A stretch of 64,000 nt of DNA from positions 1,798,001-1,862,000 of the forward strand of contig NZ_CP044522.1 in assembly GCF_016495405.1 (NCBI RefSeq), given 5' to 3'. This stretch comes from Cobetia sp. cqz5-12. GTDB taxonomy: Bacteria > Pseudomonadota > Gammaproteobacteria > Pseudomonadales > Halomonadaceae. This document shows positions 13,466 through 23,660 of this stretch, piece by piece (positions within the stretch are counted from its first letter, which is position 1; each line of letters starts with the position of its first letter). The translations under genes and the position numbers were made by a program. The notes beneath the pieces are model-generated. The model ran no database searches. It had not been told where the DNA came from and saw only the letters and a list, made by a program, of their open reading frames with translations.

Positions 13466-14686
13466 TCAGGATGACGTACCCAGTGCCTCATGAGGCTCCA
13501 TCCGGCGTGACTCACGCAGCGCTCCGCTATGCGTGCTGGCCACCGGATAGGTGCCGGGCCTGAGAATCCGCGTATCCACGTCATGGATATCACGCAATCC
13601 ACACAGGGCCAGCGTGGTGTCGAGCTCCTTGTGGATGATCTCCAGGGATCTGGTCACGCCTTGCTCGCCCATGGCGCCTAGCCCATAGAGGAAGGCACGC
13701 CCCAGGTAGACGCCCTTGGCGCCCATCGCTACCGCCTTGAGCACATCCTGGCCAGAGCGAATCCCGCCATCCATGTGGACCTCTGTCCTGTCGCCGACCG
13801 CCGCGAGAATGTCCGGCAGAGCGGAGATGGAGGAGGCCGCCCCATCCAGCTGACGTCCGCCGTGGTTGGAGACGATCACCGCATCGGCCCCTGCCTGCAC
13901 GGCCAGCTCGGCGTCCTCCGGTTCCATGATGCCCTTGATGATCAGCTTGCCGCCCCAGCGGTCCTTGATCCACTTGATGTCGTCCCAGCTCAGGCTCGGA
14001 TCGAACTGGCTGGCGGTCCATTTCGAGAGAGAACTCAGGTTCTCGGCATCCTTCACGTGGCCGGCGATGTTGCCGAAGGTGTGGCGCTTTGTCTTGAGCA
14101 TGCCGGCGCACCAGCGCCACTTGGTGGCCAGGTCAAGCACGGTTGCCACGGTGGGGCGAGGGGGCACGCTCAGGCCGTTGATCAGGTCCTTGTGACGCTG
14201 GCCGATGATCTGCAGATCAGCGGTGAGTACCAGCGCGGAACACTCCGCGGCCTTGGCGCGATCGATCAACCGTCCGATGTAATCCTTGTCGCGCATCACG
14301 TAGAGCTGGAACCAGAAGGGGCGTGAGCTGACGGACGCGACGTCCTCGATGGAACAGATGCTCATGGTGGAAAGCGTGAAGGGGATACCGAAGTCACTCG
14401 CCGCGCGCGCGGCCAGCATCTCGCCATCGGCATGCTGCATGCCGGTCAGGCCGGTGGGCGCGATCGCCACCGGCATGGCCACCTCTTCACCCAGCATCGT
14501 CGTGCGCAGAGTGCGATTGTCCATGTCGACCATCACCCGTTGGCGCAGCCCGATCGCGGCGAAATCGGCTTCGTTGGCCCGATAGGTGGATTCCGTCCAC
14601 GAGCCGGAGTCGGCATAGTCGTAGAACATCTTCGGCACGCGGCGCTTGGCGAGACGTTGCAGATCATTGATGCAGGTGATGGTCAT
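13466..14686 (-). CDS. lldD: FMN-dependent alpha-hydroxy-acid (L-lactate) dehydrogenase
   Basis: About 406 residues of the LldD/glycolate oxidase family. It oxidises L-2-hydroxy acids, most often L-lactate to pyruvate, feeding the respiratory chain. The FMN and substrate residues are present: PVAIAPTGLTGM near the N-terminus, the Lys of KLIIKGIM, the catalytic SNHGGRQLDG and phosphate-binding MDGGIRSGQDVLKA. The start at 14686 (MTITCINDL) is preferred over one 12 nt upstream. No permease or regulator gene of the usual lldPRD operon is adjacent. Substrate may be another short hydroxy acid. Confidence 0.88.
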   Translation of the reverse strand: MTITCINDLQRLAKRRVPKMFYDYADSGSWTESTYRANEADFAAIGLRQRVMVDMDNRTLRTTMLGEEVAMPVAIAPTGLTGMQHADGEMLAARAASDFGIPFTLSTMSICSIEDVASVSSRPFWFQLYVMRDKDYIGRLIDRAKAAECSALVLTADLQIIGQRHKDLINGLSVPPRPTVATVLDLATKWRWCAGMLKTKRHTFGNIAGHVKDAENLSSLSKWTASQFDPSLSWDDIKWIKDRWGGKLIIKGIMEPEDAELAVQAGADAVIVSNHGGRQLDGAASSISALPDILAAVGDRTEVHMDGGIRSGQDVLKAVAMGAKGVYLGRAFLYGLGAMGEQGVTRSLEIIHKELDTTLALCGLRDIHDVDTRILRPGTYPVASTHSGALRESRRMEPHEALGTSS

Positions 14687-14944
14687 TCCGGGCTCCATCC
14701 ATGGTGGGTCGCGCAGGGGCTGGCAGGGTCGCCTGCGCTACTGTCACCGAATCCGGTCCTGTCCAGCTATAGGCGATACGTCTAGGGGGAAGCGTTGGGG
14801 TGGTGGAATTCAATGAAAGAACGCCCTCCAGCCTGGTCAGCCATCAGCAAGAGAAGTCGACTCCTCCAGTGCGTGTCATGGATTGTCATCTTTGGGTGGA
14901 ATACTGTGGCATTGGGATGATTTCCGAGTGGATGGAGAGATGGC

Positions 14945-16708
14945 ATGGATCAGGCCTGGCCTGAAAGCACGCGCGATAACCTTCGATTTCTGTGTTCGGA
15001 AGTGGATAGCCAATATGGCTGGCTGCAGGCCTTCGTGTCCGCGCCGACGGCGGCCATGGCACGCAAGCTGCTGGAGCGCCAGGGTTACGCCGAGAATCTC
15101 TGCCAGCGTATCGAACAGGCATGCCCTGAAGCCCGAAATCACAAACGCTCGCACGCGCGGGCCCGCTTCCAGCAGAGTCTGGTCGTGGTCGCCAGCGGTC
15201 TGGCGCGACTCAGTGAGCTGGCGCGCAGTTGCCTGGAGCAGCTTGTTCGCGTCGATGATGTCCAGCTGGTCGATGATGTGGTGCTGGTCAAGTCGCTGCG
15301 CCGTGTGCGTCGCGGCATTCTGCGCAGTGAAATGTCGCTGGAGAACGGCTCCCTGTCACTGGCGCTCAAGCTCGCACGCAGCCGCGAGACGCTGAAGCGG
15401 GACAGCGATGACCGTATCCAAGCGCTCACCGGCCAGCTCAAGAAGAGGCGCGCTCCCGCCGAGGATCTGACACATCTGCTGTTCGTGGCCCGTGAAATCA
15501 GTCAGATGGGCGAGGTGCTGGGGCAGCTGGGTGAGGCGGTCATCTCGGCAACCCTCGGTCAGTCACTCAACTTCGAGCGCTATGCCTCGCTGACGCACCT
15601 GGTCAATGAGCTGGGCGATGACAGCCAGCCCGCGAACGAGATGCGCGTCGACACCCTGGCCGAGACACGCTCCGGCAGCCGGATATCGGGCATTGCCAGT
15701 GAGAAGGCGACAGAGCCTGAATGCAGTAAGCACGGCAAGCTAGTCAGCAATGACAAGAGAGAGAAGAAAGGCAGGAAAGTCAGGAAAGACAGGAAAGAGA
15801 AGAGCACCGACGAGCTGACGCTGGCAGCGCCAGAGTACCTGGCGATCTTCAAGGATGGCCAGGGGCGCAAGGTCGAGGAGGAGCGTCAGGGGGTCGAGCG
15901 CTGGCACGACATCTATCCCGGCATCGCACCCCGCATCCTCTCGCATCACCAGCAGGGCGACAGCGCGGCGCTCTTGATCGAGCATCTGCCGGGCATGACC
16001 TTTGAGCATCTGTTGATCAACGAATCGTCACGCCTCAATCGTTGCGCCCAGCAGGCGCTGGTCGAGACACTCCACTCCGTATGGACCACCACCCGCCGCG
16101 ACAAGCCGGTCACTGCAGGGCACATGCACCAGCTGCTCAAGCGGCTGAGTGATGTCTATCAGATTCATCCGGAATTTCGCCACTGCGGTGCCTCGCTGTG
16201 TGGGCGCGAGATGCCCTCGCTGGAAGCGTTGATCGAGCAGGCCGCAGGACTGGAGCGTTCGCTCGAGGCCCCCTTCGCCGTCTATATCCATGGCGACTTC
16301 AATGTCGACAACATCCTCTTCGATCCGGCCAAGCAGAGCATCCGATTCATCGATCTTCACCGCTCGGCCTATCAGGACTATGTGCAGGACGTGTCCGTGC
16401 ACATGGTGTCCCATTATCGCCTTCAATTGACGGATGCGGCGCTGCGGGCCCGTATTCTGGCATTGGCCCTGAGTTTCGGTCAGCAGATGCGTCGCTTTGC
16501 CCATGAGCAGGGCGATACCACCTTTGAGTGGCGTCTGGCACTTGGCCTGGCGCGCTCCTTTGCCACCTCGACACGTTTCATCCTTGATGCCGGGCTGGCA
16601 GGGCGCATGTTCAACCGCGCACGCTTTATACTCGAGCATGCGCTTGGCGCTGACCCTGATCGGCCGGCCGATTACCGTATTCCCCTGGAGGAGTTGTTCG
16701 TTGACTGA
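14945..16708 (+). CDS. PhoU-like / aminoglycoside-phosphotransferase-fold kinase fusion
   Basis: 587 residues in two parts. The first (about 1-220) is long amphipathic helices that resemble PhoU-type bundles by pattern, a call I hold weakly. A very basic, Lys-rich linker follows (about 265-290). The C-terminal part (about 300-560) is an APH/choline-kinase-fold phosphotransferase: the Brenner motif HGDFNVDN starts at His449 and a DFG-like FIDLHRS follows at about 467. Both catalytic Asp positions are present. It opens a run of seven same-strand genes and overlaps the next one by 8 nt. GGAGA precedes the ATG. Antibiotic phosphorylation is unlikely given the fusion and neighbours; an endogenous substrate is more probable. 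Confidence 0.8.
   Translation: MDQAWPESTRDNLRFLCSEVDSQYGWLQAFVSAPTAAMARKLLERQGYAENLCQRIEQACPEARNHKRSHARARFQQSLVVVASGLARLSELARSCLEQLVRVDDVQLVDDVVLVKSLRRVRRGILRSEMSLENGSLSLALKLARSRETLKRDSDDRIQALTGQLKKRRAPAEDLTHLLFVAREISQMGEVLGQLGEAVISATLGQSLNFERYASLTHLVNELGDDSQPANEMRVDTLAETRSGSRISGIASEKATEPECSKHGKLVSNDKREKKGRKVRKDRKEKSTDELTLAAPEYLAIFKDGQGRKVEEERQGVERWHDIYPGIAPRILSHHQQGDSAALLIEHLPGMTFEHLLINESSRLNRCAQQALVETLHSVWTTTRRDKPVTAGHMHQLLKRLSDVYQIHPEFRHCGASLCGREMPSLEALIEQAAGLERSLEAPFAVYIHGDFNVDNILFDPAKQSIRFIDLHRSAYQDYVQDVSVHMVSHYRLQLTDAALRARILALALSFGQQMRRFAHEQGDTTFEWRLALGLARSFATSTRFILDAGLAGRMFNRARFILEHALGADPDRPADYRIPLEELFVD
15772..15798 (+). repeat. 9-bp triplication in the kinase linker
   Basis: Three adjacent copies of CAGGAAAG(T/A), in frame, encode the RKVRKDRKE part of the basic linker, suggesting slippage-driven linker length variation. 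Confidence 0.8.
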
Positions 16709-17603
16709 TTTCAAGATTGGCGTCGTGGGTATTCCCGGCAAGTGGTCGACCGAAGTGCTGGCGGATGCCATCGAAGCACGGACGGGCTTTCGTCTCGTGA
16801 TCGACATGGCGGCCGTCTCGCTGGACCTGACCCGCAACTGTCTCGAATTCCGTGACTCTGCCGGGGCGCGTCATGACCTGACCGAGCTGGATGCCCTGAT
16901 CGTCAAGAAGATCAGCGCGGAATATTCCCCGGGCAGCCTGGACCGCCTGGAGCTGCTGCGTGTCGCCGAAGCCAGGGGGGTGCGCGTCTTCAGTAGCGCG
17001 GAGAGCATGATTCGCCTGATCGACCGCCTGAGCTGCACGGTGACGCTGGCCAATGCCGAGGTACCGATGCCGGCCACGCTGGTCACCGAAGAGGTGACGG
17101 CGGCCTGCGAGGCCGTCAAGCGCTTCAAGGCCGCCGTCTTCAAGCCGCTTTTCTCCACCAAGGCGCGGGGCATGTGCATCATCGAGGACACCGATGATGA
17201 TGCCGCGCTGGAAGCTGGCGTGCGTGAGTTCGCCGCCGAGCATCCGATGATGTATCTGCAGCAGCGCCTCGACCTGCCGGGGCAGGATTACGGCATGGTC
17301 TTCGTCGGTGGCCGTTATCTGTGCAGCTACGCCCGAGTCAGTGGGGGCGATGCCTGGAATACCACCATCCACGCCGGTGGCAAGTACGCGCCCTTTGAGC
17401 CCTCCGAGAAGCTGATCGCGCTGGCGCAGCGGGCCCAGGCGCCGTTCAAGCTCGACTTCACCACCGTCGATGTCGCGCTGACCGATGACGGCCCGATCAT
17501 CTTCGAAGTCTCGGCCTTCGGTGGCTTCCGGGGGGCACTGGAAGGCGCCGGTGTCGATGCGGCGACCGCCTATCTCGATCATGTGATGGAGTGTCTGTCA
17601 TGA
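16701..17603 (+). CDS. RimK-like ATP-grasp enzyme (GAK-system type)
   Basis: 300 residues from a TTG at 16701, which has GGAGGAG 8 nt upstream and overlaps the stop of the preceding kinase gene by 8 nt. ATP-grasp features are AAVFKPLFSTKARGMCII (ATP-binding Lys), QQRLDLPGQDYGMVFVGG, VDVALTDDGPIIFEVSAFGG (metal-binding Glu near the C-terminus; the usual ExN is EVS here). Enzymes of this fold join a carboxylate to an amine through an acyl phosphate. I recall a family model named 'GAK system ATP-grasp enzyme' for proteins like this, always next to an HprK-related kinase. The substrate is unknown. It ends in an ATGA overlap with the next gene. Confidence 0.85.
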   Translation: MTDFKIGVVGIPGKWSTEVLADAIEARTGFRLVIDMAAVSLDLTRNCLEFRDSAGARHDLTELDALIVKKISAEYSPGSLDRLELLRVAEARGVRVFSSAESMIRLIDRLSCTVTLANAEVPMPATLVTEEVTAACEAVKRFKAAVFKPLFSTKARGMCIIEDTDDDAALEAGVREFAAEHPMMYLQQRLDLPGQDYGMVFVGGRYLCSYARVSGGDAWNTTIHAGGKYAPFEPSEKLIALAQRAQAPFKLDFTTVDVALTDDGPIIFEVSAFGGFRGALEGAGVDAATAYLDHVMECLS

Positions 17604-18793
17604 GTACGACGACCTGTGACAGCTCAGCCAGCCTTGCCATGCTGCCGTTTGCCGAGTGGACGGCCTCCGCCTGCTTCTCGGCGCTGACGCCGTCACGCCA
17701 GTGCCTGAGCGAGGCGTTGCTGTTCGAGGTGGATGACTTTCGCCTGTGTGTGATGACGGACATGCCACGGCTGCTGCAACGTCTGGCGACATATTTCCGC
17801 CATTGCGCGCGCATCGTGGCGCTCGACAATGTGCCGGGGGGAGCCAGGCTCGTGCATGTGCTCAAGGCGCCGGCCCTCAAGGACACGCCAGCGGCAGCGA
17901 AACTCGGCATCGTGCCCGAGGCCTTCGTCGATTGGATGCCGGAGCCCGGCAAGACACGCCGCAAGGACGCCATCATCGACCTGGCCGACGGGCGCCTGAT
18001 TCACAAGGTGCGCACGGGCATGGCCTTTCTGCGCAGCAACGACCACAACCTGGCGTTCGGGCCCTGTGAAGACAACGAGAGCCAGGTGATCAACTTCCTG
18101 CTCAATCTGCACATGTCGCATCTGCAGCAGAATGACGGCTTGATCTGTCACGCCTCGGCGCTGTCGAAGGGCGATCGCGCGGTGGCCATCGCAGCCTTCT
18201 CTGGCGGCGGCAAGTCCACCACCATGGTGAAGGCGCTCGACAATCCCGGGTTCGACTTCATCAGCAATGATCGGCTGTTCCTGGACCGGCCGGGGCGGGA
18301 GGGAACGCTGCGTGCCCGCGGCGTCGCCAAGTTGCCACGCATCAATCCCGGTACCATGCTCAACAATCCGCGTCTGCGCCCGCTGCTGGACCCCGCGCGT
18401 ATCGCTGGATATGAGGCGATGCCCCAGGAAGCGCTGTGGGATCTCGAAGAGAAGCATGACCTGATCATCGAAGACGTCTACGGCCCCGGGCGTATCCGTG
18501 CCAGCGGAGAGCTTGCGGCCATGGTGATACTCAACTGGACGCGCGGCAGCAAGGCGCCGCTCGAGGTGCGCGAGGTGGAGGTCTGCCGCAATGAAGCACT
18601 GATACGCGCGGTGATGAAGACACCGGGGCCCTTCCATCAGCAGCGGGATGGCCGTTTCGTGCCCAATGGCGCGAGCCTTGATCCCGCGCCGTATCTGGAG
18701 CGCCTGGCGGGAACCCGCGTGCTTGAGGTGACCGGGCGCGTGGACTTCTCCGCGCTGGTCGAGGATCACCTGACCCCCTTGCTGGAGGCCTGA
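17600..18793 (+). CDS. HprK-related kinase B
   Basis: 397 residues. The P-loop AAFSGGGKSTTMVKAL (about 198-213) and the downstream FISNDRLFLDRPG correspond to the Walker A and DD-type segments of HPr kinase/phosphorylase, embedded in a longer protein with an extra N-terminal domain (1-150). I recognise it as the 'HprK-related kinase B' type, whose target is unknown. No HPr gene lies in the window, so the phosphate acceptor is probably not PTS HPr. The start at 17600 overlaps the ATP-grasp stop (ATGA), and an alternative GTG lies 9 nt upstream. The gene is followed 2 nt later by a phosphohistidine-phosphatase fusion, a natural counter-enzyme. Confidence 0.85.
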   Translation: MSTTTCDSSASLAMLPFAEWTASACFSALTPSRQCLSEALLFEVDDFRLCVMTDMPRLLQRLATYFRHCARIVALDNVPGGARLVHVLKAPALKDTPAAAKLGIVPEAFVDWMPEPGKTRRKDAIIDLADGRLIHKVRTGMAFLRSNDHNLAFGPCEDNESQVINFLLNLHMSHLQQNDGLICHASALSKGDRAVAIAAFSGGGKSTTMVKALDNPGFDFISNDRLFLDRPGREGTLRARGVAKLPRINPGTMLNNPRLRPLLDPARIAGYEAMPQEALWDLEEKHDLIIEDVYGPGRIRASGELAAMVILNWTRGSKAPLEVREVEVCRNEALIRAVMKTPGPFHQQRDGRFVPNGASLDPAPYLERLAGTRVLEVTGRVDFSALVEDHLTPLLEA

Positions 18794-18795
18794 AC

Positions 18796-19788
18796 ATGCG
18801 TCGTGAACTGCTGTTGATGCGCCACGCAAAGTCGGACTGGTCAGTGGCAGCTGACGACTTCCATCGTCCGCTCAAGGAGCGCGGCAAGCGGGGCGCCCAG
18901 CGCATGGGGGCCTGGCTTGCCCAGCAAGCGCTGGTGCCGGATGCCATCCTGAGCTCGCCGGCCCTTCGGGCGCGCGCCACGGCGGAAAAGTGTGTCAAGT
19001 CGATGGGCCTCGGCGTCGACATGATCGAGCTCAAGCCTGCGCTTTACTGCGAGGAGGAGGCACCGCTGCTCAAGACGGTGCGCGCCTGTCCGGATAGTGT
19101 GCAGCGACTGATGATCATCGGCCATAACCCGGCATTGGAAGATGCGCTGGTCTGGTTGACCGGCAAGCGGCCGCGCCCGCCCAGGGAGACCAAGCTGCTG
19201 CCGACGGCAGCGGTGATCAAGCTGAGCTTCGAGGGGCGCTGGGAAGACCTGCGCTCCGGCCAGATGAGCCTGGAGCTGATCCAGCGTGTGCGTGCCTTGC
19301 CGGATGGCTTTCCCTGGCCATTCCCGGCCGGTGAGGAGCGCCGCGAGCGCCCCGCCTATTACTACCGCCAGTCGGCCGTCCTGCCTTGTCGCCTGCAAGG
19401 GGAGGGCGATGATGCCCGGTGGGAGGTGCTGTTGATCGGCTCTTCCTCCAACCGTCACTGGAGCCTGCCCAAGGGAATCGTCGAGCCGGGGCTGAGTCCG
19501 CTTGAGTCCGCGCTCAAGGAAGCCCGCGAGGAAGCGGGCATCGAGGCGGAGGCAATGGACAACGCAGCGTTGGAATTCAGTTATGAAAAGTGGGGGGCCC
19601 CTGTCGCTTCCAGTCTGCACGCGGTGAGAGTCGTGCACGAGCAAGAAGAAAGCGAGCGGGAGGAACCGCATCGCAGTCGGCGCTGGGTGGCGGCGGAGGT
19701 CGTGCCGAGCCTGTTGAAGAACCACGAGATGGGGCACGCCGCCATGGCATTGCTGGCAAGGCTTGAGGCGTCGCGCCAGGCGAAATGA
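18796..19788 (+). CDS. SixA-type phosphohistidine phosphatase fused to a Nudix hydrolase
   Basis: 330 residues. Residues 1-165 form a SixA-like histidine phosphatase: catalytic MRHAKSDW (His10), LSSPALRAR (Arg58) and IIGHNPALED (His110). Residues 190-325 form a Nudix domain with LPKGIVEPG and the Nudix helix from Gly227 to Ile249. The metal-binding Glu242, Glu245 and Glu246 are present, but the first Glu of the box is Leu233 and the Arg is Lys241. The order is the reverse of the mycobacterial MutT1 fusion (Nudix then histidine phosphatase). The PKG-x-x-E-x-G start is typical of enzymes hydrolysing dinucleoside or inositol polyphosphates. It starts 2 nt after the kinase gene. Confidence 0.88.
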   Translation: MRRELLLMRHAKSDWSVAADDFHRPLKERGKRGAQRMGAWLAQQALVPDAILSSPALRARATAEKCVKSMGLGVDMIELKPALYCEEEAPLLKTVRACPDSVQRLMIIGHNPALEDALVWLTGKRPRPPRETKLLPTAAVIKLSFEGRWEDLRSGQMSLELIQRVRALPDGFPWPFPAGEERRERPAYYYRQSAVLPCRLQGEGDDARWEVLLIGSSSNRHWSLPKGIVEPGLSPLESALKEAREEAGIEAEAMDNAALEFSYEKWGAPVASSLHAVRVVHEQEESEREEPHRSRRWVAAEVVPSLLKNHEMGHAAMALLARLEASRQAK

Positions 19789-19877
19789 TTGCTTGGACTG
19801 GCACCGTACGTGTCGACGCATGGCGAGGACCGCCAGCATGAATCAATACCGAGTGAAGACGGGAAGAGCGACGGCCG

Positions 19878-20594
19878 ATGACTGATGAACCGACAATCCG
19901 ACGTGTGGCATTGATTCGTCATGCCGACTATCACCAGCAGATTGATACCCCGAGCGCACTGCAGCCGTTTCCCTTGACCCGTCGCGGTGAGCGTCAGGCG
20001 CGTGAGGGAGCCGAGGAAGTGCTGACGCTGTGTCAGGCACATGGCTGGCAACCGGCCAGCACGGTACATGCCTCCAGCCTGTTGCGTGCCTGGCAGACGG
20101 CGCAGGTGATGAACGAGGTCATGGGTGACAGGACAGGGCGTGAGTTCTCGCTCATGGCACACGATGCCCTGTGGGAGCGCAGTCTGGGCAGCGCCGCCAA
20201 TCTGACCACGGCACAGATCGCCGAAGCGGTGCGTCATGACCCGCGCGTGGATTTCCTGCCGGCCGACTGGAAATCCAACAGCCATTTTCGTTTGCCGCTG
20301 CCGGGGGCTGAATCCCTGATGCAGGCCGGTCAGCGCGTGGCCGACTTCATGGCGTCGTTGCCGGCTTCCCCATCAGCCCTCACATCGGGCACCACGCTGA
20401 CACTGATCGTCGGCCATGGTGCGGCGCTGCGGCATGCGGCGCATCTGCTGGGCGTGCTGGACTTCGATCAGATTGCCGGGCTGAGCATGCATCATGCGCG
20501 GCCGGTGGTCATCGAGGAGCATCTGTCCGGGTCATGGCGGCATGTGGCTGGCGAGTGGAAGGTGCGCCAGCGTCACGAGCCCGCGCAGGATTGA
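19878..20594 (+). CDS. Histidine phosphatase superfamily protein (phosphoglycerate-mutase-like)
   Basis: 238 residues. The catalytic set is complete: LIRHADYH (Arg14, His15), HASSLLRAWQTAQ (second Arg), DALWERSLG (acid Glu) and LIVGHGAALRHA (second His). It is cytoplasmic, with no signal peptide. It is the second histidine phosphatase in the run, distinct from the SixA half of the previous protein, and lies 89 nt downstream on the same strand. The substrate could be a small phosphorylated metabolite or a phosphoprotein. Confidence 0.85.
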   Translation: MTDEPTIRRVALIRHADYHQQIDTPSALQPFPLTRRGERQAREGAEEVLTLCQAHGWQPASTVHASSLLRAWQTAQVMNEVMGDRTGREFSLMAHDALWERSLGSAANLTTAQIAEAVRHDPRVDFLPADWKSNSHFRLPLPGAESLMQAGQRVADFMASLPASPSALTSGTTLTLIVGHGAALRHAAHLLGVLDFDQIAGLSMHHARPVVIEEHLSGSWRHVAGEWKVRQRHEPAQD

Positions 20595-20642
20595 GTGGGC
20601 GGCCCAGCCGGCGGAGTGCTGCGGACCCGGGGCGGACGGGGA

Positions 20643-20689
20643 GCTGGAAAAGCAGCGGGGCGGGGTGCTGGAAAAGCAGGGGGCGGAGT
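20643..20689. repeat. 24-bp imperfect direct repeat, two copies
   Basis: GCTGGAAAAGCAG followed by a G-rich tail occurs at 20643 and again at 20667. It lies in the 307-nt gap between the histidine phosphatase and phosphoesterase genes, which holds nothing else I recognise. Confidence 0.75.
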
Positions 20690-20901
20690 CATTGACAGCA
20701 AAGAAGCAGGCCTACGTACCAGCGCGATGCGAGCCTGTCATCTTTCTGCGATCAAACGGTCATAAGCTTGTCGCCCTGTGCTCGTGACCTCATCCCACAT
20801 TCCGCATACCTCAGGAAGGTCTCCAAGGAGCGGCAAGGCGCTTGCTTGCCACAAGCCGGTGAGTTCAACGAGGCAGGCAGATGCCACAAGGAGATATCCC
20901 A

Positions 20902-22194
20902 ATGACCCTCAATCCCCCCATGAGCGACGCCGTACCGCGTTACCGGGGCCCGACGCGCTATCTCAAGGCGCTGCCCAGTCATGCGGCTCAGTGGCCCGAG
21001 ACACATCAGCACCTGCGCGCCGGTGACAAGGTGTCCCACGCCGCTCGCAAGCTGGGCAGCAAGGACTGGCCGCGCCGCGATGTCATCTTCATCTCCGATG
21101 CGCATGCCGACGCGGAAGCCTTCATCGCGTCTCTGGTAGCCAGTGGCGGCGTGCGCCTGACCTCACGGGACCACCTGGTGTTGACGGCGCGGGGCAAGCG
21201 CAGTGTCTTCGTCATCGGCGGTGACTGCCTCGACAAGGGGCCCAGCAATCTGGAGCTGTTGGAAGCCCTGCGAACCTTGATGCGCAGCGGGGCGCGTCTC
21301 AAGTTGCTGGCGGGGAATCACGACATGCGGCTGATGCTGGCGCTGATGCGGCTGAGTCATGATGATTCGGCGCGGACCGATCATCTGTTCGTGCGCATGG
21401 GCGCCAAGGGGCTGGCGTTGCTCAAGGAAGTCTTCGATCACTATCTCGCTGACAGGCCGCGGGCGATGAAGAGCATTCCCTCGCGAAGTGAATGCCGTCG
21501 ACGCCTGTACCCGGGACCGGACTGGGCGGAGCAGTTTCGCAAATCGGCAGGCCATGTGCTCAAGGGGGAGGCGCTGGAGAAGGAGATCACTCGCCTGAGT
21601 GCCAAGGCCGATGGCTTCGAGCATGCCTGTGAGAAACATGGCCTCTCGTTGCGTCAGACCTATGCCGCCGCGCTCAAGGCCCACGAGCTGTTTCTCAAGC
21701 CCAGCGGGCGCTTTGCCTGGTTCTTCGACGAGATGCGCCTTGCCTATCGCAGTGGCGCCTTCCTGCATGTTCATGCAGGCGTGGATGATGCCTTCGCCAG
21801 ACGACTCGGCCGCCAGAAGGTCTCGCAGGTCAATCAGGAATTCCGGCGCATCCTGCGCGAAGACCCGTTCACCTTCTATTACGGTGAGCTGGCCAATGTA
21901 CTGCGCACCAAATATCGCAAGAGCGACATGGTGCTGAGCGCCGCAGGCGTCAAGCGCCTGCACAAGGTCGGCATTCGTGCCGTGATGCATGGCCACGTCA
22001 ATCATCAGGCGGGCCAGCAACTGGGCTGGCGCCATGGGCTTCTGCATATCGAGGGCGACGTCACCCTGGATCGCAATTCACGCCGCAAGGAAGGGCTGGA
22101 TGGCGTGGGCATGGGGGCGACGCTGATAGAAGCCTGTGGACGCATCGTCGGCATCAGCAATGACCATCCCGAGGTCAAGGTCTACGCGCCCTGA
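20902..22194 (+). CDS. Calcineurin-like metallophosphoesterase
   Basis: 430 residues. The dimetal motifs in order are FISDAHAD (Asp, His), IGGDCLDKGPSN (Asp), LAGNHDMR (Asn, His), FLHVHAGVDD (His) and VMHGHVNHQ (Gly-His). This is a full PP/ApaH-like active site, interrupted by a helical insertion (about 170-260) that is unusual for ApaH and may cover the site. I start at 20902 because AAGGAGA sits 8 nt before it; an in-frame ATG 21 nt upstream lacks this. It is cytoplasmic, and lies in the phospho-enzyme run just before the amphi-Trp gene (20-nt gap). Dinucleoside polyphosphates are a reasonable but unproven substrate. Confidence 0.85.
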   Translation: MTLNPPMSDAVPRYRGPTRYLKALPSHAAQWPETHQHLRAGDKVSHAARKLGSKDWPRRDVIFISDAHADAEAFIASLVASGGVRLTSRDHLVLTARGKRSVFVIGGDCLDKGPSNLELLEALRTLMRSGARLKLLAGNHDMRLMLALMRLSHDDSARTDHLFVRMGAKGLALLKEVFDHYLADRPRAMKSIPSRSECRRRLYPGPDWAEQFRKSAGHVLKGEALEKEITRLSAKADGFEHACEKHGLSLRQTYAAALKAHELFLKPSGRFAWFFDEMRLAYRSGAFLHVHAGVDDAFARRLGRQKVSQVNQEFRRILREDPFTFYYGELANVLRTKYRKSDMVLSAAGVKRLHKVGIRAVMHGHVNHQAGQQLGWRHGLLHIEGDVTLDRNSRRKEGLDGVGMGATLIEACGRIVGISNDHPEVKVYAP

Positions 22195-22214
22195 AACACG
22201 CACAGGAGAGGCAG

Positions 22215-22496
22215 GTGAAAGACGACAAGCAGGACAAGTCGCTGTTCCGACATGAATCATTGCAGTCCATTGATAGTGTCCAGGACATTCTCAAGGCGAT
22301 CATCAAGGGGCTGGGCAAGGGGCTTTTGTCATTTCGCGATGAGGACGGCGAGATACGGCTGGCACCGCGCGGCCTGATGACCCTCAAGATCACGGCGCGG
22401 CGAGAGGATGACCATCATCGTCTTGATATTCGCCTGTCATGGCATGCCAGGCCCGGTGCCAAGCGCAACAAGACGCTCAAGGTGCTTGATGAGTGA
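22215..22496 (+). CDS. Amphi-Trp domain protein
   Basis: 93 residues from a GTG preceded by AGGAGAG. The alternating pattern, with SLFRHESLQSIDSVQDIL, a Gly-rich turn, FRDEDGEIRLAPRG, and beta strands ending in LDIRLSW (the family's closing Trp), matches the small 'amphi-Trp' domain found beside GAK-type kinase and ATP-grasp genes. It might be the carrier or target of the kinases in this run; no experimental role is known to me. Its tail (HARPGAKRNKTLKVLDE) is basic. It ends the same-strand run. Confidence 0.8.
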   Translation: MKDDKQDKSLFRHESLQSIDSVQDILKAIIKGLGKGLLSFRDEDGEIRLAPRGLMTLKITARREDDHHRLDIRLSWHARPGAKRNKTLKVLDE

Positions 22497-22736
22497 GGGC
22501 AGCGTGCGCTGGCATTGATCCAGATCAAGTCTCTGCCAGTCCGCGGGCAGCGGAGAGATGGCCGGCATGTCCGCGCTCACGCGGCTATGGTACATGTAGC
22601 ATGCTGCATATTGGGTCGTGTCTGCTGCGACACGCCCCCTCCCCATGATCAGGACATGTCATTGATGCCTTCCTCCCCTCAGCGCCTGTGCGGTGCCGAT
22701 CAGCTCTCGTCTACCTTGCACTTCGCCAGCCCTGCG

Positions 22737-23660
22737 ATGAATCCTGCTGTCAGGCCTTCAAGGCGCTGGCAACAGTGGCTGACCGCCGTCGCGTTTGCCT
22801 GTCTACCGCTGGGTGCTCAGGCGGCAGACGATGCGCCAGCCGCTGACACGGCGCTCTCGGCGTCGGCCATTCAGGCCATCGAATCAGAAGTCGGCGCGCG
22901 AATCGGCGTGACCGTTCTGGATACCGCCGATGGCACCCGTTTCAGCTGGCGGGGAGATGAACGCTTCCCCATGAGCAGCACCTTCAAGGTGCTGGCCTGT
23001 GGTCATCTGCTCTCGCGGGTGGACGAAGGCCAGGAATCGTTGTCACGCAAGGTGGAGATTCACCCGGCGGATCTCGTGACCTATTCCCCCATCACCGAGC
23101 ACCACACCCAGGATGGTGGCCTGACGCTTGAGGCGTTATGCCATGCCACCATCACGACCAGCGACAATACCGCGGGTAACCTGATTCTCGACGCTCTGGG
23201 CGGCCCTGCCGCACTGACGGCCTATCTACGGCGTCTGGATGATGACAGCACGCGGCTGGACAGGCGTGAAACGGCGCTCAATGAGGCCACTCCCGGTGAC
23301 CCGCGTGATACCACTACGCCACACGCGATGGCTGCCACCCTGCAGCGATTGCTGGTGGGGGATGCGCTGAGCGAGCCATCGCGCCTTGCACTGCAGGGCT
23401 GGATGCTGGCCAACACCACCGGGGATGACAAGCTGCGGGCGGCCTTGCCCGATGACTGGCAGATCGCGGACAAGACCGGCGGCGGGGGATATGGCACCAA
23501 CAATGATGTTGCCATCCTGTGGCCACCGCTGCGTGCCCCGTTGATCGTGGCGGTCTATCTGACCGAAAGCGAGGCCGATCTGGCAGCGCGCAATGCCGCG
23601 ATTGCCGATGTCGGGCGTCTGCTGGTCGAAGAAGTGCTGGAGGGCGAAGCGAGTCGCTGA
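22737..23660 (+). CDS. Class A serine beta-lactamase
   Basis: 307 residues with a signal peptide ending LPLGAQA. All catalytic elements are present: S81-T-F-K84 (Ser70/Lys73), S142-D-N144 (SDN loop), E178-x-x-x-N182 in the omega loop (Glu166, Asn170) and K246-T-G (KTG). It hydrolyses penicillins and probably early cephalosporins in the periplasm, as class A enzymes do. The spectrum cannot be read from sequence. The chosen start gives a normal signal peptide. An in-frame ATG at 22656, preceded by CAGGA, would put about 27 extra residues in front. No AmpR-like regulator or mobile element is adjacent, so it looks like a resident chromosomal gene. Confidence 0.92.
   Translation: MNPAVRPSRRWQQWLTAVAFACLPLGAQAADDAPAADTALSASAIQAIESEVGARIGVTVLDTADGTRFSWRGDERFPMSSTFKVLACGHLLSRVDEGQESLSRKVEIHPADLVTYSPITEHHTQDGGLTLEALCHATITTSDNTAGNLILDALGGPAALTAYLRRLDDDSTRLDRRETALNEATPGDPRDTTTPHAMAATLQRLLVGDALSEPSRLALQGWMLANTTGDDKLRAALPDDWQIADKTGGGGYGTNNDVAILWPPLRAPLIVAVYLTESEADLAARNAAIADVGRLLVEEVLEGEASR

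Follow-up and report, generated by a model that had tools for sequence, protein, structure and literature searches.

Cobetia sp. cqz5-12 carries a full GAK operon, a conserved and mobile six-gene module with a possible role in phosphate homeostasis

What do two kinases, an ATP-grasp enzyme, several phosphatases and a small amphi-Trp protein do together in one run of genes? The question is raised by positions 14945-22496 of a 64,000 nucleotide stretch of DNA from Cobetia sp. cqz5-12, referred to here as the window, which covers bases 1798001-1862000 of a 4.2 Mb genome assembled as a single contig; the nearest named relative of this genome is Cobetia amphilecti. An earlier note, made from the letters alone, described seven same-strand genes and likened them to the GAK system named by NCBIfam. 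Reading the open reading frames in the window placed all seven on the + strand, at the coordinates that note had given:

14945..16708, + strand: KIN, with a helical, PhoU-like domain at about residues 7-223 joined to an APH-type kinase at about residues 230-587; profiles and predicted model
16289..16312, + strand: KIN APH catalytic loop HGDFNVDN, residues 449-456; alignment of 42 relatives
16701..17603, + strand: GRASP, the GAK system ATP-grasp enzyme, RimK/LysX-like, with a TTG start; TIGR04356
17600..18793, + strand: HPRK, the HprK-related kinase B; TIGR04355
18200..18220, + strand: HPRK P-loop SGGGKST; alignment of 28 relatives
18796..19788, + strand: SIXNUD, a SixA-like phosphohistidine phosphatase domain followed by a NUDIX domain; NCBIfam/Pfam and PDB relatives
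19878..20594, + strand: HISP, a histidine phosphatase of branch 1; PF00300
20881..22194, + strand: METP, a calcineurin-like (ApaH/PPP-type) phosphoesterase; PF00149 and ApaH 2dfj
22215..22496, + strand: AMPHI, an amphi-Trp domain protein of 93 aa; TIGR04354
22251..22259, + strand: AMPHI motif H13-x-S15, a candidate phospho-acceptor site; conserved residues
14785..22880, approximate and with the right edge not exact, no strand: the cassette, made up of the operon and its edges; comparison with Cobetia genome G045

The run does more than resemble GAK; it is a GAK locus. NCBIfam and Pfam searches with each protein yielded family calls, and three GAK families pass their cut-offs: TIGR04356 in GRASP (429.8 bits against 300), TIGR04355 in HPRK (281.9 against 200) and TIGR04354 in AMPHI (62.5 against 31). 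The CofD-like family TIGR04357 is found elsewhere in the genome (528.8 bits against 340), and all four thus exceed the curated cut-offs. The XXXCH protein, which we take from NCBIfam naming to be a further member of the system, had no match in the seven window proteins or in 42 KIN relatives, a genome-wide search for it not having been made.

For the wider comparison, 84,980 species genomes were scanned and 433 stretches with ATP-grasp relatives were confirmed, of which the best 80 were kept. Neighbourhoods were counted at those 51 related loci, alpha- and gammaproteobacterial, that have 8 kb or more on either side; the loci share descent, and the counts cannot be treated as independent trials. 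All on the same strand as the ATP-grasp gene, KIN and HPRK occur in 51/51 loci and HISP, METP and AMPHI in 50/51 each, and the complete six-gene core, coupled by overlaps, is present in 49. The order met most often runs CofD-like (reverse), Nudix, KIN, GRASP, HPRK, SIXNUD, HISP, METP, AMPHI. It recurs in most of the 51 loci, and conservation is therefore not limited to random pairs of neighbours. SIXNUD, which the earlier note included in its seven-gene run, is indeed part of the run here, but it is accessory to the module: a SixA-Nudix gene is found at 32 loci (27 on the same strand) and a Nudix gene at 33. A few loci have a different grouping, GRASP-HISP-METP and KIN-HPRK-SIXNUD-AMPHI, which hints that there may be two sub-modules.

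The junctions also read as the earlier note described them. In the window, the KIN stop and the GRASP start at 16701 share 8 nt, GRASP and HPRK meet in an ATGA at 17600-17603, and 2 nt separate HPRK from SIXNUD; over all junctions compared, the 8-nt overlap is seen at 64 of 70 and a 4-nt GRASP/HPRK overlap at 41 of 71. In favour of chance neighbours or separate short operons there is the gap between HISP and METP in the window (20595-20880, 286 nt), which is the largest among 67 such junctions. Neither a promoter nor a terminator was detected in this gap, and across the cassette a sigma-70 promoter scan gave no match and an RNA-family search found none. Order, strand and overlaps are kept across classes, and this conservation refutes the idea of chance neighbours, to which practically no credence can be given.

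Co-occurrence among genomes leads to the same place. The GAK ATP-grasp enzyme is over cut-off in 25/201 Halomonadaceae and in 13/398 genomes of the phylum. Full-length KIN is present in 25/25 of the ATP-grasp-positive and 0/35 of the negative Halomonadaceae, weaker matches covering the PhoU part only, and METP shows the same 25/25 against 0/35. Given the presence counts of KIN, HISP and METP, the core consists of six genes and not three: the conserved unit is wider than the families that NCBIfam named together and that the earlier note had repeated, with the PhoU-APH kinase, the histidine phosphatase and the ApaH-like phosphoesterase equally core. In public annotation these last three carry generic names only. 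The locus is a complete copy of the conserved GAK module, and in Halomonadaceae the core operon is gained or lost as a set.

Presence and absence can be compared within the genus. In the operon-less Cobetia genome G045, the distance from the FMN-dehydrogenase gene (window 13466-14698) to that for the beta-lactamase (from about 22890) is about 467 bp, compared with about 8.2 kb here; on the left, weak similarity to G045 runs to about 14784. The run forms a discrete cassette that another Cobetia lacks at this site. The gene adjoining it downstream, for a class A type beta-lactamase (PF13354, window 22515-23660), is kept at the empty site of G045. Core operons are also carried by Rhodobacterales plasmids, in unrelated surroundings, and in the ATP-grasp tree, whose deep branches are weak, the Cobetia copies stand apart from those of Halomonas and Onishia. 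Horizontal spread of the GAK operon is likely. One locus, L046, is filed as 'Halobacteria archaeon', and its GAK operon, flanked by CHAD and ParA genes, is of the usual gammaproteobacterial kind; the place of L046 among the gammaproteobacteria in the tree indicates a probably misnamed or contaminated bin.

Presence/absence polymorphism at one site and carriage on plasmids would also suit an anti-phage defence system, or another mobile accessory cassette standing apart from metabolism. PADLOC, however, returned nothing for the core proteins; its one match, to a generic Nudix model, was for the accessory Nudix. None of the flanking families counted belongs to defence. A defence role is highly improbable.

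Clues to what the module does come from its proteins, and first from KIN. The kinase half matches APH (PF01636, 7.2e-10), and the alignment of 42 relatives matches PhoU structures by profile (4q25, 2.4e-10); PF01895 is matched individually by 37/42 relatives, and PhoU models overall by 36-37 of them. In the predicted model (pLDDT 87) the N-terminal domain fits PhoU chains with TM 0.83-0.86, reaching 0.86 over the PhoU chain of 2i0m (2.5 A, 201 columns), and the C-terminal half superposes on APH and choline kinases. The description of this protein as PhoU-like was therefore right: its N-terminal domain alone has the PhoU profile and fold, although PhoU stands alone in the Pst-PhoR system and is here fused to a kinase. 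In the catalytic loop HGDxNxDN, the H, G, D, N, D and N are identical in 42/42 relatives, and a DLHR motif is also invariant.

The hydrolases come next. Pfam finds NUDIX and two His_Phos_1 domains across SIXNUD and HISP, the latter with PF00300 at 5.3e-16, and METP matches PF00149 at 9e-06 and is weakly ApaH-like (2dfj, 1.6e-4). Among solved structures, the first half of SIXNUD is related to SixA, and its Nudix half is nearest to diphosphoinositol polyphosphate phosphohydrolases (DIPPs) and then to Ap4A hydrolases. Mycobacterial MutT1, whose substrates are 8-oxo-dGTP, diadenosine polyphosphates and phospho-NDK (PMC11784022), likewise joins Nudix and RHG histidine phosphatase domains in one protein, although in MutT1 the Nudix domain precedes the RHG domain, in SIXNUD it follows, and the gene context differs. 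A separate cluster of proteins (c30) of 187-195 aa, with a Nudix-like GGGLGDRE...EFVEET motif and no Pfam match, is encoded within or right after split GAK operons (L073, L071, L079, L120 and L121). Make-and-erase phosphate chemistry, as proposed in the earlier note, fits the conserved catalytic motifs.

It is in HPRK and AMPHI that another explanation finds its ground. In an HPr/HprK-like switch, HPRK would phosphorylate Ser15 of AMPHI, while a kinase or a phosphotransfer might use His13; HISP, SixA or METP would reverse this, and phospho-AMPHI would control other proteins. HPRK is a P-loop kinase related to HprK by family naming, and its SGGGKST is identical in 28/28 relatives, but at about 397 aa it has a long additional N-terminal region, and it matches solved HprK only weakly (1jb1, E 0.4); the NCBIfam scan gave TIGR04355 and TIGR04352 only, with no canonical HprK model, and Pfam gave none. 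AMPHI, a core protein at nearly every locus, is modelled as one helix and four strands (pLDDT 86), and F11, S15 and W76 are conserved in 50/50 sequences and H13 in 48/50. A carrier or substrate role is compatible with the invariant Ser and Trp, judging by sequence. These residues may instead be structural, and the Ser15 comparison excludes amphi-Trp homologues without GAK (Haloferax rings). Amphi-Trp outside GAK was not found on the two haloarchaeal plasmids examined, and structural searches with AMPHI gave no neighbour below E 1.5 in Foldseek or above Z 2.2 in VIA-align. NPr, which is HPr-like, and Ndk are known targets of SixA (PMC12934123). The earlier note had judged classical carbon control unlikely on the ground that HPr was absent. 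Two HPr domains are in fact encoded in the genome, one in a free HPr-domain protein and one within a long reading frame, and the argument from a missing HPr fails. The HPr-like switch is doubtful, but it is the strongest rival and may be a layer of the same phosphate module.

GRASP points in a different direction. Its best PDB relatives are LysX and RimK, and it lies near the RimK/LysX/MptN ligases, which would suit biosynthesis of a phosphorylated, amino-acylated metabolite or cofactor: the kinases would protect or activate, GRASP would ligate, the CofD/YvcK-like protein would transfer a nucleotidyl or phospho-acyl group, and the phosphatases would deprotect. The CofD-like gene is adjacent to the operon, and always divergent, in 30/51 loci, and is over cut-off in 24/25 operon-positive Halomonadaceae. 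Its nearest solved relatives are YvcK/GlmR (UPF0052) proteins (2ppv, 1.3e-35), among which the Listeria member is a uridyltransferase (PMC10128056); the GAK proteins differ in having additional segments and DS in place of the D40-D41 pair named as catalytic in Listeria GlmR. On the other side, Ser replaces the usual metal-binding Asn (EVN in LysX/RimK) in 17/17 GRASP sequences, so that ligase activity is not assured, and the core was seen with no recurring exporter, carrier or tailoring enzyme. The CofD-like gene is also separable from the operon, since it is kept in 3/35 operon-negative genomes, and it is retained in two operon-less Cobetia genomes. In the window's genome it lies at 2445312-2446427, about 630 kb from the GAK operon and unlinked to it. 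Biosynthesis of this kind is unlikely.

In every Cobetia examined, genes for an ABC transporter (SBP_bac_6), a type I phosphodiesterase and a HAD phosphatase precede the CofD-like gene on one strand (L126:1277-8437, at about 2.44 Mb of G000:C1, and L127, L128 and L130, which include two GAK-less species). These neighbours were considered as a substrate clue and rejected, the context being seen in Cobetia only.

The surroundings of the operon in other genomes favour phosphate. A CYTH/CHAD protein (CHAD by Pfam match, CYTH-like by eye) flanks 8 loci, of gammaproteobacteria, one zetaproteobacterium and one alphaproteobacterium, and this linkage amounts to four changes on the ATP-grasp tree. PPK1 flanks 4 loci and a Na/Pi cotransporter 10; when Pfam families are tallied over 98 proteins of the flanks, those near the top include CNNM/CorC (6), a Na/Pi cotransporter with PhoU (5) and CHAD (3). 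CHAD proteins bind polyphosphate granules. A ParA-like ATPase gene adjoins the CHAD gene in 8/8 CHAD loci (L046, L048, L056, L066, L079, L104, L111 and L121), and the pair may therefore position granules. In some gammaproteobacteria, CNNM/CorC-type transporter genes are the most frequent neighbours of GAK operons (L046, L048, L053, L056, L073, L079, L115, L116, L117, L121 and L122).

Upstream regions add to this. In a scan for consensus PhoB boxes, scores of at least 21.5 were obtained for 8/71 operons compared with 4/317 control upstreams (Fisher 2e-4), a p-value that, like any such here, is optimistic because related genomes share sites. Exact TGT(C/A)A pairs have the Pho spacing of 11 nt in 7/71 upstream regions, and each of the other spacings from 7 to 20 occurs in at most 3. 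A CTGTAAGAAACATGTAAC-type repeat lies in a conserved promoter region in twelve Halomonadaceae of one genus, about nine of them well kept. A comparable arrangement is the Pho-regulated polyphosphate operon ppk-pptA(CHAD)-Nudix of Streptomyces, given that CHAD and PPK1 flank some GAK loci, although the description of that operon includes no gene for a PhoU-kinase, an ATP-grasp enzyme, an HprK-like kinase or an amphi-Trp protein; PPX/GppA, Nudix/MutT and histidine phosphatase genes are commonly found after ppk (PMC8003754).

A role in phosphate or polyphosphate homeostasis is therefore proposed, tentatively but as the likeliest reading, for this conserved and mobile module, because of the PhoU domain, the PPK1, CHAD and Na/Pi neighbours and the Pho-box-like sites, the latter two in several lineages. 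The PhoU-like domain of KIN would sense phosphate status and gate the APH-type kinase, and KIN and HPRK would phosphorylate a common target; AMPHI would be this target or a carrier. The RimK-like GRASP would ligate an amino acid or similar group onto the target or its partner. HISP and METP, with SIXNUD and Nudix where present, would strip phosphates or pyrophosphates and thereby let the mark cycle. Gene content, motifs and linkage are observations; the phosphate role in Cobetia, each reaction and its direction, and AMPHI as the target are inferred.

Several observations weigh against the phosphate proposal. No Pho box was found upstream of the operon in the window or in other Cobetia copies, no polyphosphate gene is among the nearby genes examined at the window locus, and the only PPK1 match of the genome (G000:C1:3768616) is about 1.95 Mb from the operon. 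Elsewhere, polyphosphate neighbours occur at a minority of loci and are partly inherited within one gammaproteobacterial clade, and the commonest neighbour, CNNM/CorC, is no phosphate gene. GRASP is similar to amino-acid ligases, a class of enzyme for which a pure phosphate cycle has no use, and neither GAK, amphi-Trp nor HprK-related kinase is mentioned in the literature searched.

A more specific form of the phosphate proposal can be drawn from eukaryotes, where the inositol-pyrophosphate pathway (an ATP-grasp kinase/phosphatase, DIPP Nudix enzymes and SPX sensors) uses like enzyme classes in phosphate homeostasis. The GAK module would be a functional counterpart of this pathway and of SPX, writing, sensing and erasing a phosphate-rich signal or a pyrophosphorylated protein mark tied to polyphosphate stores. 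The PhoU-gated kinase would be writer and sensor, and erasing would fall to the DIPP-like Nudix, the histidine phosphatase and the ApaH-like enzyme. The likeness, through the Nudix domain of SIXNUD, is by analogy only; GRASP is nearest to LysX/RimK and not to PPIP5K/ITPK, and no inositol kinase is apparent by sequence. This version is quite improbable.

GAK has so far been a name without a function in the literature searched. With a PhoU-fused kinase and two phosphatases in its core, the behaviour of a cassette and, in several lineages, polyphosphate genes and Pho-box-like sites close by, it now poses a testable question about phosphate in marine and symbiotic Pseudomonadota. If the proposed role is true, the module would be an additional layer of phosphate control beyond Pst-PhoR-PhoU.

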